35,358 bases of DNA from a virus. Under the pieces are notes generated by a model that saw only the letters and a program-made list of their open reading frames with translations, made no database searches and had not been told where the DNA came from. Both the position numbers and the translations under genes were made by a program. Where the stretch lies: IMG/VR virus record IMGVR_UViG_3300009164_000018, positions 1 to 35,358 of that record; one strand, 5' to 3'. Positions 3,521-34,362 of this stretch are shown one piece after another (position 1 is the first letter of the stretch; every line of letters starts with the position of its first letter).

Positions 3521-3635
3521 AGCGTTTAAAGAAAACATCAAGACGGAAATAAAGGCTGGTAAACCAGTCAAGCAAGCCGTTGCGATAGCGTATTCAGAAA
3601 AGCGTGAGGCTCAAAAAGCCAAGGCAAAGAAGTGA
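3495..3635 (+). CDS. small basic protein, hypothetical
   Basis: This 46-residue lysine/alanine-rich protein starts at an ATG with GGAG upstream (a longer reading from 3444 would skip it). The pattern SPKAFKENIKTEIKAGKPVK followed by QAVAIAYS matches a widespread small phage protein family in which an alanine-rich helix ends in a basic tail (EAQKAKAKK). DNA or RNA binding is plausible from charge only. Its stop overlaps the GTG start of the methyltransferase fusion. Confidence 0.7.
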   Translation: MLKKSTSPKAFKENIKTEIKAGKPVKQAVAIAYSEKREAQKAKAKK

Positions 3636-4825
3636 AAATAACTCAAAAACTAGTCACAGAACTAATCCCTTATGTAAAAAACAGCCGCACCCACTCTGAC
3701 GAACAAGTAGCGCAGATTGCGGCAAGCATTAAGGAATTTGGCTGGACTAACCCAATACTGATAGATGGGGCTAACGGCATCATTGCAGGGCATGGCAGGC
3801 TAATGGCCGCCCGTAAGTTAGGGCATAAGGAAGTTCCCACCATAGAACTGAAAGACCTAACCGAAACCCAAAAGAAGGCATACATTATTGCCGACAACCG
3901 CCTGGCGCTAAATGCGGGGTGGGACAACGAGATGCTGACCATAGAGTTAAACGACCTATTGGCAGACGGCTTTGCCTTGGACATATTAGGCTTTGACCCA
4001 AAAGAGATAGCCGCCTTGCTAGAGCCAGAGGTGGTGGAAGGGCTGACCGATGAAGATGCCGTTCCTGAAGCGCCAGAAGAACCCAAGACCAAACTTGGTG
4101 ACATTTACCAGTTGGGCAACCATCGGCTAATGTGTGGTGACAGCACCAGCATTGACGCTGTGGATAAATTGATGGATGGGCAAAAAGCCGATATGGTGTT
4201 CACAGACCCGCCTTATGGTGTTAGTTATACAGGCGGTGCAAAGAAATGGGATGGAATCAAAAATGATTCTTTGCAAAACGAAAACTTAGTTGATTTTCTT
4301 AATTCTGTTTTTAATTGTGCAGTTATAAGCACAAAAGATAGTGCGCCATGGTATGTTTGGCACGCATCAAATACAAGTGCAGACTTTTACCAAGCACTTC
4401 AGCAAGTTGGTAAAAAACCATCGGCACAAATAATTTGGGTAAAAAACATTATGGCTGGTGGTTTTGGTGACTATCGTGGAAAGCATGAACCATGCATTTA
4501 TTGTTCTGGTGGTAAAAATGCTTGGCATGGTGGCAGAGACCAACACACAATATGGAATGTTGATAGAGAAAGAAATTACCAACACCCAACCCAAAAGCCT
4601 GTTGCATTGGCTGAAAAGGCTTTAGGTAACTCTAGTAAAAGCGGAGATATGGTTATTGATTTATTTGGTGGGTCAGGTAGCACATTGATTGCTTGTGAGA
4701 AAACAAACCGCCACGCCAGGCTAATGGAACTAGACCCCAAGTATTGCGATGTAATAGTAAAGCGGTGGGAAGACTTTACAGGCAAGAAAGCCGTATTGTT
4801 GACAGAAGTAACCGAAACTGCTTAA
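3632..4825 (+). CDS. ParB-like nuclease domain / DNA methyltransferase fusion
   Basis: This 397-residue protein has a GTG start overlapping the previous stop. Residues 1-130 form a ParB/Srx-like domain (IIAGHGRLMAARKLG at 50-64, then ADNRLAL at 87-93). An acidic linker follows. Residues 155-390 are an amino-methyltransferase in the beta order: the catalytic DPPYG motif at 192-196, a variable target-recognition region, then the SAM-binding DLFGGSGST at 343-351. Such fusions are common in phages and prophages and methylate DNA, possibly at sites located by the ParB-like domain. The target-recognition part (bases 4235-4690) is visibly more AT-rich than both flanks, suggesting replacement by recombination. 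It may protect phage DNA or control packaging. Confidence 0.9.
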   Translation: MKITQKLVTELIPYVKNSRTHSDEQVAQIAASIKEFGWTNPILIDGANGIIAGHGRLMAARKLGHKEVPTIELKDLTETQKKAYIIADNRLALNAGWDNEMLTIELNDLLADGFALDILGFDPKEIAALLEPEVVEGLTDEDAVPEAPEEPKTKLGDIYQLGNHRLMCGDSTSIDAVDKLMDGQKADMVFTDPPYGVSYTGGAKKWDGIKNDSLQNENLVDFLNSVFNCAVISTKDSAPWYVWHASNTSADFYQALQQVGKKPSAQIIWVKNIMAGGFGDYRGKHEPCIYCSGGKNAWHGGRDQHTIWNVDRERNYQHPTQKPVALAEKALGNSSKSGDMVIDLFGGSGSTLIACEKTNRHARLMELDPKYCDVIVKRWEDFTGKKAVLLTEVTETA

Positions 4826-33531: not shown

Positions 33532-33537
33532 TATATA
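33529..33537 (+). promoter_or_regulatory. possible extended -10 promoter for the RNA at 33546
   Basis: TGA directly before TATATA (33532-33537) resembles an extended -10 (TGn-TATAAT). TATACT (33534-33539) is an alternative -10 hexamer. A start near 33544 would give a roughly 108-base RNA ending at the T-run. No convincing -35 is seen. Confidence 0.35.
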
Positions 33538-33545
33538 CTTTGCAA

Positions 33546-33651
33546 AACGCTTGGCGGCGTTACTCGTAGTAGGGTTACACATGAAGTCTGCTGGTACTAC
33601 GCCAGTCCGCCAACACCGAAAGGTGAGACTTCAGGTGTAGCCCTTTTTTTT
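33546..33651 (+). ncRNA. C4-like antisense RNA / pseudoknotted attenuator
   Basis: Helix 1 pairs GGGTTACAC (33572-33580) with GTGTAGCCC (33635-33643, one G-U) and, after an A-G mismatch, TGAAGTC (33582-33588) with GACTTCA (33627-33633). Inside are a hairpin CTGG-loop-CCAG (33591-33605) and CACC-GAAA-GGTG (33614-33625) with a GNRA loop, making a three-way junction. The 7-base loop TACTACG (33595-33601) is complementary to CGTAGTA (33565-33571), and the junction segment CCGCCAA (33607-33613) to TTGGCGG (33551-33557). Eight T follow. This is the layout of the P1/P7 C4 antisense RNA, which carries two short antisense segments; here their complements lie just 5'. Family membership is inferred. Confidence 0.6.
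33572..33651 (+). terminator. intrinsic terminator formed by helix 1 of the RNA
   Basis: The 16-bp helix 1 followed by eight T (33644-33651) is a strong intrinsic terminator only nine bases before the initiator ATG at 33661. Expression of the replication gene would therefore require readthrough or disruption of the helix. Confidence 0.65.
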
Positions 33652-33660
33652 GGGCAAAAA

Positions 33661-34362
33661 ATGAGAATCAAGAACTATAAAAAGTTTCAGCATTTCAAGG
33701 ATAGGAAACCACCTTGGGTGAAGTTGTATCGTGACATTTTGGATGACTTGGAATGGCATGAACTTGACCCAAAGGCATCAAAAGTCTTGGTAATGCTGTG
33801 GTTAATTGCCAGCGAAGATGAAGGCAATATCCCACCCATCAAACAACTTGCTTTTCGGCTAAGAATGTCAGAAAAGGATACGGAAGTATGCATTATCAAG
33901 TTGTCTCATTGGCTGGAACAAGACGATATCAATGCGATATCAACACGATATCAAAGTGATAGTGTAGAGACAGAGAGAGAGACAGAGAAAGAGACAGAGG
34001 CAGAGTGTATTAGTCCACCTGTCGGTGAACTTCCAAGTTGCAACCATCAGGAAGTTATAAATCTTTATCACAAGCACTTGCCTACGCTTAGACGGGTAGA
34101 GGTCTGGAACGAAACCCGTAAGGGCTACTTACGCCAAAGGTGGCGTGAGGTGGCTGATGAACTATCCAAGACTAAGACTGTGGAGGCATCGGACATTCTG
34201 GGATGGTTTGCCGAGTTCTTTGACCACATCGGTACATCCAAATTCTTGATGGGCAAAGTCAACAGCAAAGATGGGCGGTCTTTCTATGCCGACCTAGAGT
34301 GGATTCTCAAACCAAGCAATTTCGCAAAAATCGTAGAGGGAAAATATCATGGCTCTAACTAA
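33661..34362 (+). CDS. replication initiation protein, lambda O-like
   Basis: This 233-residue protein begins MRIKNYKKFQHFKDRKPPWV followed by KLYRDILDDLEWHELDPKAS, the winged-helix N-terminus of phage replication proteins of the O type. A low-complexity acidic linker (about residues 105-117, ETERETEKETEAE) separates it from a C-terminal helical region expected to recruit a helicase or its loader (SDILGWFAEFFDHIG). No helicase gene is present, so the host one must be used. The linker-coding DNA holds CGATATCA iterons. The ribosome binding site is weak (GGG), beside a terminator, suggesting tight control. Confidence 0.82.
   Translation: MRIKNYKKFQHFKDRKPPWVKLYRDILDDLEWHELDPKASKVLVMLWLIASEDEGNIPPIKQLAFRLRMSEKDTEVCIIKLSHWLEQDDINAISTRYQSDSVETERETEKETEAECISPPVGELPSCNHQEVINLYHKHLPTLRRVEVWNETRKGYLRQRWREVADELSKTKTVEASDILGWFAEFFDHIGTSKFLMGKVNSKDGRSFYADLEWILKPSNFAKIVEGKYHGSN
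33924..34005. other. putative replication origin (iterons) within the initiator gene
   Basis: CGATATCA occurs three times at 33924-33931, 33935-33942 and 33946-33953, exactly 11 bases apart, and a degenerate fourth copy (TGATAGTG) follows at 33957-33964. A 40-base purine-rich tract (33966-34005) comes next. Repeats in phase with the DNA helix inside an O-like gene, followed by a strand-asymmetric region, resemble the lambda origin inside gene O. Confidence 0.6.

Follow-up and report, generated by a model that had tools for sequence, protein, structure and literature searches.

The window analysed here is a freshwater virus record of 35,358 bases (IMG/VR record IMGVR_UViG_3300009164_000018), which encodes P22-type portal and coat genes together with the lambda-like early genes Erf, YqaJ exonuclease, RusA and NinB, and in which searches for a tyrosine integrase, a serine recombinase and HTH_3 gave no match to any of them. 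The window carries, at positions 33546-33651, a structured element flanked by a small HNH-like gene and, on its other side, by an O/DnaD-like replication initiation gene (33661..34362, + strand; phrog_5810 at 1.2e-20, plus other replication initiation families). This element combines two target segments, two antisense segments complementary to them and an intrinsic terminator, and it resembles the C4 antisense RNA of phages P1 and P7. Following the naming used for P1, a and a' designate here the pair that includes TTGGCGG, and b and b' the loop pair.

All the parts of the element lie on the + strand. A -10-like hexamer, TATACT (33534..33539), precedes it, with a predicted RNA start at about 33545. 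The 5' hairpin H0 (33546..33561; AACGC/GCGTT, arms 33546-33550/33557-33561), which is folded and covaries, presents the target segment a (TTGGCGG, 33551..33557) in its loop. The target segment b (CGTAGTA, 33565..33571) comes next and adjoins the base of the outer helix with zero linker. This outer helix, which is also the terminator helix (5' arm, 33572..33589; 3' arm, 33626..33643), consists of 17 base pairs (bp), arranged as 9 + 8 around a single A x G mismatch, and closes a three-way junction, in which one of the antisense segments occupies a hairpin loop while the other one is single-stranded. The former is b' (TACTACG, 33595-33601), placed at the far end of the helix in the loop of hairpin P3 (33590..33606; GCTGG/CCAGT), whose stem is common to the C4 of P1 and to natural C4 RNAs, and the latter is a' (CCGCCAA, 33607..33613), followed by a GNRA hairpin or helix X (CACC-GAAA-GGTG, 33614..33625). 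The intrinsic terminator ends in a U8 tract (33644..33651), kept as a T-run in all aligned homologues; the stretch from helix to U-tract comprises about 80 nucleotides (nt; 33572-33651). Both the outer helix and the GNRA hairpin are backed by folding and covariation.

Most of this fold had been seen in the initial annotation of the sequence. The three-way junction, the 7-base loop, the GNRA hairpin and the terminator were all recovered by folding, and the two exposed 7-base segments are indeed perfectly complementary to segments located 5' of them (TTGGCGG/CCGCCAA and CGTAGTA/TACTACG); the long helix was also found, one pair longer than the 16 bp (9 + 7) originally counted, and only the covarying H0, which presents TTGGCGG, had been overlooked. 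The minimum free energy (MFE) of the element is -47.4 kcal/mol (z -4.2), a value equalled by 0 of 200 shuffles, which together with the covariation in homologues described below shows that the structure is not due to chance.

Homologues were gathered from the initiator gene family in IMG/VR and by a pattern scan, with a definition of the element that ignored a and b and relied on the 3' half and the complementarity of the outer stem. This a/b-blind definition yielded at least 125 candidates, one of which (L254) is a chance match, leaving at least 124 real elements. Among the matches listed, an exact complement of the element's own a' is found in 123 of 124 elements, some 17-22 nt before the helix; the main a' alleles are CCGCCAA (97), CTGCCAA (15) and CCGTCAA (11), tracked by the a alleles TTGGCGG, TTGGCAG and TTGACGG, and 26 of the 27 elements with a non-majority a' match their a exactly, none of them keeping the majority a. 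The exception, and the sole real element among these matches with a mismatched pair, is L440:997, where a (TTGGCAG) and a' (CCGTCAA) show two differences, and which may have arisen by recombination of two alleles.

A plain MAFFT sequence alignment of 85 homologues, fitted to no structure, gives the same picture for the whole fold, with 97.1% of cells paired, two-sided changes at 29 of 37 pairs, and a covariation score of 0.579, compared to 0.191 when shuffled and at most 0.10 when slid. In this alignment two-sided changes affect all seven pairs of b:b' (96.9% of cells paired), 15 of 17 pairs of the outer stem, four of five in H0 and three of four in the GNRA hairpin. Every variable helix covaries, and the two antisense pairs, b:b' in this alignment and a:a' through its matched alleles, do so as well, a test that the initial annotation had suggested. 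The stem of P3 is constant in the alignment owing to the search pattern, and it is CCGG/CCGG in L464, a 72-bit homologue from another genome. G-U cells (155) greatly outnumber A-C cells (9), and it is therefore the + strand RNA that is under selection.

These data bear directly on the simplest account of the locus, namely an ordinary terminator or a DNA structure of a replication origin in which the additional complementarity is incidental. A terminator is indeed present, and the neighbourhood of an initiator gene is a possible site for an origin. Nevertheless, covariation of a:a' and b:b', both of which fall outside the terminator helix, is seen in over 100 homologues, the wobble pairs are asymmetric between strands, which disfavours a DNA structure, and the genes downstream are non-homologous, making this account very improbable indeed. 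Protein coding is also an unlikely explanation, since the homologues differ by indels of 1-2 bases and by compensatory pairs; the open reading frame (ORF) at issue, UOF77143, deposited antisense across the element in MW202462.1 (33654-33896), is probably spurious, and the initiator gene itself is unannotated in that record.

The surroundings of the element are those of a leader. In the regions upstream of the homologues, a -10-like hexamer is found 16-19 nt before a in 96 of 121 cases, a position that places the RNA start at the base of H0. The first start codon downstream lies at a median of 10 nt past the U-tract in the homologues, and at 10 nt in the window, and because such a gap has no room for a promoter, the downstream operon, including the O/DnaD-like gene at 33661..34362, must be reached by read-through only. 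Replication initiation or primosomal proteins are encoded downstream in the window and in many homologues, where the first genes encode DUF1376/primosomal proteins, O-like and DnaD-like initiators, or Lin1244-type proteins, and the replication initiators found in different carriers are non-homologous to each other. The proposal that the RNA gates the initiator gene is thus borne out in the window and in many relatives, but the first downstream gene varies, and 'leader of the early/replication operon' is a more fitting description of the element than an initiator-specific gate. All 27 long carrier records contain the element exactly once. As noted from the outset, a second adjacent pair of targets is missing: no other a-b target was found in the window, and in 1.05 Mb of flanking DNA the search gave 0, with 1.3 expected, which leaves the element's own leader as the sole detectable partner of a' and b'.

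How the two complementary pairs could be used depends on when they may form. With b and b' at opposite ends of the 17-bp helix, b:b' should not form in cis once this helix is closed. The pairings had been envisaged as a pseudoknot or as contacts in trans, and the helix geometry makes a pseudoknot in the finished fold unlikely, while pairing prior to helix closure, or between molecules in trans, is possible. As long as the 3' arm has not been made, the fold with a:a' and b:b' paired, which encloses the 5' arm of the terminator in a loop, is the MFE structure in 58 of 103 leaders and lies within 2 kcal of it in 91 of 103; at full length, the terminator wins over this fold by at least 7.3 kcal/mol.

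We lean slightly towards regarding the leader of about 105 nt as a self-targeting attenuator, that is, a permuted relative of C4/CI fused to its own targets and to a terminator and working in a manner similar to the CI RNA of satellite phage P4. Transcription would start at H0 and, in the nascent RNA, a and b would find their partners a' and b' within that molecule, ahead of the synthesis of the terminator's 3' arm. This antiterminator pairing would loop out the 5' arm of the terminator and allow read-through into the initiator gene. Terminated transcripts would instead fold as three-way-junction RNAs, with b' in a loop and a' exposed, and these could act in trans by binding to a and b in subsequent nascent leaders, among them the leaders of a superinfecting phage that shares the b type. 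Such trans pairing would block the antiterminator and cause termination before the replication genes, and the outcome would be a negative feedback on replication gene expression and copy control, together with a superinfection immunity or incompatibility specific for the b type. If this were true, the phage could shut off its own replication genes, and perhaps those of close relatives.

Two narrower schemes each retain one half of this self-targeting attenuator. In the first one, the element would be a C4-type repressor acting exclusively in trans, where the terminated RNA diffuses, binds a-b of other leaders and works by termination or RNA decay, the intramolecular a:a'/b:b' fold is irrelevant, and read-through requires a phage antiterminator or a leaky terminator. 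The C4 of P1 and the CI of P4 do act in trans, the finished fold leaves b' and a' exposed, and b:b' should be unreachable in cis after helix closure; however, the targets are found only in the same transcript, cis pairing is favoured in nascent leaders, and the tight spacing of b to the outer helix, which b adjoins in all elements, would be left without a reason, so that we consider this scheme unlikely, although not negligibly so. The second one is an attenuator or riboswitch-like leader acting only in cis, where a protein or the speed of transcription sets the balance between pairing and terminator and no RNA diffuses. It would accommodate the folding of nascent leaders and the location of the element 10 nt before the first gene, but the variable b/b' types on a constant scaffold and the junction shared with trans-acting C4 RNAs both point to RNA-RNA specificity, and no conserved protein site is evident besides a/a' and the core of P3, all of which renders it improbable.

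The specificity expected from the self-targeting attenuator can be examined in the b/b' pairs, of which at least 35 distinct b' loops have been found so far. The energy of b:b' is -6.3 kcal/mol for cognate and -1.7 kcal/mol for non-cognate combinations, the latter being as strong as the cognate ones in just 2.6%, and when elements diverge at 2% of their outer-stem sites, their b/b' diverges at 26%. This is the pattern to be expected from immunity or incompatibility types, and such a variable code would make the specificity of superinfection or incompatibility predictable from sequence. Nevertheless, b/b' diverges at about the rate of the neutral H2 loop and does not outpace the GNRA hairpin, and diversifying selection on b/b' is therefore not demonstrated.

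Regarding its carriers, a BLAST search of the element against 50,697 phage records matched only MW202462 and MW202544, both assembled from metagenomes, and a search against plasmids returned none. One Polynucleobacter chromosome carries the element (L267/L463), its neighbours being an O-like initiator and a cI-like gene in divergent orientation; genes for RecT, an exonuclease and NinB lie in the neighbourhood and an integrase about 17 kb away, a gene content that places this copy in a prophage. The other pattern matches in bacterial genomes are mostly chance matches in coding regions, L267 being the only clearly real one. In the Polynucleobacter family the element occurs in 2 of 299 genomes and classical C4 in 85 of 200, and none of the 17 carrier records tested has a classical C4 (RF01695). 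A tyrosine integrase is encoded in only 2 of 27 long carriers and a serine recombinase in none, so most carriers, including the window, show no sign of integrating. In several species of the Polynucleobacter family (e.g., G047, G071, G109), a single genome contains 10-20 classical C4 RNAs, which recalls the C4-like sRNAs that have been reported to occur in multiple copies in Acinetobacter (PMC5320573).

Several results weigh against the self-targeting attenuator. Immunity is hard to reconcile with the 25 of 27 carriers lacking an integrase, unless copy control or superinfection exclusion is meant. No full sigma-70 promoter match was found when the window was scanned. Some of the first downstream genes are not replication genes, as they encode small orphan proteins, HNH, GIY-YIG or ParB-like proteins. 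The pairing folds were calculated with nearest-neighbour energies only, and in the complete leader the antiterminator falls short of the terminator by 7-16 kcal/mol, so it can act only kinetically. Whereas the structure of the element, its terminator, its location, its two coevolving complementary pairs and the absence of other targets are directly observed, its expression, antitermination, action in trans and role in immunity are what we infer from them.

A second structured leader, named here class B, precedes the same initiator family in sister phages (L015:4902-5028, L016:2486-2610, L034:4903-5030, L037:4905-5031, L055:4905-5029, and others), and had no match in Rfam. It is composed of a GARAC/GTTTC closing helix, a GGCTA-hairpin-GAAAA part and a small hairpin, whose loop pairs with a stretch immediately 3' of GTTTC and close to the start codon; the two partners vary in concert (CTCCC/GGGAG, CACCTT/AAGGTG, TACTTGTC/GACAAGTG). 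The two RNAs are not alternatives to each other, since L065 holds both in a row, with a C4-like element (3724-3832) before an HNH gene and a class B leader (4296-4420) before the initiator. Elsewhere in the window, positions 3632-4825 contain a gene whose product is ParB-like in its N-terminal part and resembles a DNA methyltransferase in its C-terminal one.

C4 and CI RNAs are classic RNA immunity factors of phages, and C4 is processed by RNase P to an RNA of about 77 nt. The kinship of the element to C4 claimed in the initial annotation holds in kind, given the order of a and b, the b' loop, the adjacent a' and the core sequence, but not as membership of the Rfam family RF01695, the junction being rotated. 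The covariance-model search recommended there gave no match of the window element to RF01695, either at gathering or at E <=10 (a mir-87 match at E 1.9 was chance), even though RF01695 does match P1, P4 and 85 of 200 bacterial genomes, and a model built from the element homologues (R1) found no match at the C4 of P1 or P4. This mutual failure stems from the rotated order of the junction and, as the model match and the strand order both fail, the element is not to be filed as a member of RF01695.

In the C4 of P1/P7 (RF01695, with its upstream target motif c4-a1b1, RF03163), as in the element, targets a and then b lie near the 5' end of the same transcript, a1 in a small hairpin loop, and the three-way junction contains b' in a hairpin loop closed by GCYGG/CCRGT and an adjoining a'. 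The junction sequence is also common to both (CTGCTGG..CCAGTCTGTCAAC in P1): the C4 of P1 reads CTGCTGG-TTTCACTAACG-CCAGTCTGTCAACCC, with a1 TTGACAG and b1 GTTAGTGC upstream, matched in the element by CTGCTGG-loop-CCAGTCCGCCAAC, with a and b in equal order. Both RNAs follow the circuit of helix Y, hairpin P3 with b', a', helix X and back to Y, but they are opened at different points. In C4 the long open helix is X, and Y forms a short hairpin with UUCG; in the element, the long open helix, which leads to the U-tract, is Y, and X is a 4-bp GNRA hairpin. The strand order of C4, in which the outer helix is followed by the UUCG hairpin, the b' hairpin and a', thereby becomes outer helix, b' hairpin, a', GNRA hairpin. 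Contrary to C4, the open helix of the element is an intrinsic terminator adjoined by b, there is no antirepressor gene, and the second target (a2, b2), located in C4 systems at the ribosome-binding site of the regulated gene, has no counterpart. Heteroimmunity between P1 and P7 has been ascribed to c4 (PMC12197685).

The rotation was also examined by segment comparison, where profiles from the element alignment were applied to 30 natural C4 RNAs of the Polynucleobacter family plus those of P1 and P4, making 29 distinct sequences. These fit the rotated order better than that of the element (mean score -3.8 vs -13.4), and 18 of the 29 beat all 60 of their own shuffles. The best-fitting ones (L488 and L492) have the arrangement GGTGAGAC-cttcgg-GTCTGCCGG-loop-CCGGTCTGCTAACGCC, whose counterpart in the element is GTCTGCTGG-loop-CCAGTCCGCCAACACC-gaaa-GGTGAGAC. 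The CI of P4 falls outside the profile fit and several other C4s fit weakly; common descent with C4 is therefore likely, but unproven. The element is best described as a circularly permuted, terminator-fused relative of C4.

According to a 2023 study, the natural circularly permuted RNAs comprise only hammerhead and twister ribozymes, 5S rRNAs and group II introns (PMC10085705), to which a regulatory antisense RNA would be added if the permutation is accepted. No description of the element was found in a literature search covering openly licensed papers only, and this compact version of C4/CI, common in freshwater phage contigs, is absent from Rfam 15. We regard it as quite possible, without going so far as to favour it, that the element is an antisense RNA that underwent circular permutation in nature and joins target, antisense and terminator in a single self-targeting attenuator, and that it supplies freshwater phages, most of them without an integrase, with modular immunity types made of RNA only and is shared between non-homologous replication modules.

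The known precedent for such a mechanism is the CI RNA of P4, itself a member of RF01695, which confers immunity by keeping the replication genes off through premature termination after pairing with sites in the leader (PMC4825925). Both are antisense RNAs lying in the leader of a replication operon that also contains the complementary sites. In P4, however, CI is flanked on either side by such sites, seqA and seqC, and a distinct terminator-like hairpin, isrK, lies between CI and seqA, whereas the element has only the upstream site and its terminator is its own helix. The IsrK leader of Gifsy-1 (Rfam RF01394) is also a short, terminated leader of a prophage operon with a regulatory read-through form (PMC4825925), but it acts on an antirepressor operon and the terminated IsrK RNA contains no C4-type junction. 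A further parallel can be drawn with the rep attenuators of plasmids.

In pT181 and pIP501, RNA-RNA pairing in the rep leader decides on termination before rep. Their antisense RNA is made from the opposite strand, whereas in the mechanism proposed for the element the terminated sense leader would itself be the regulator.
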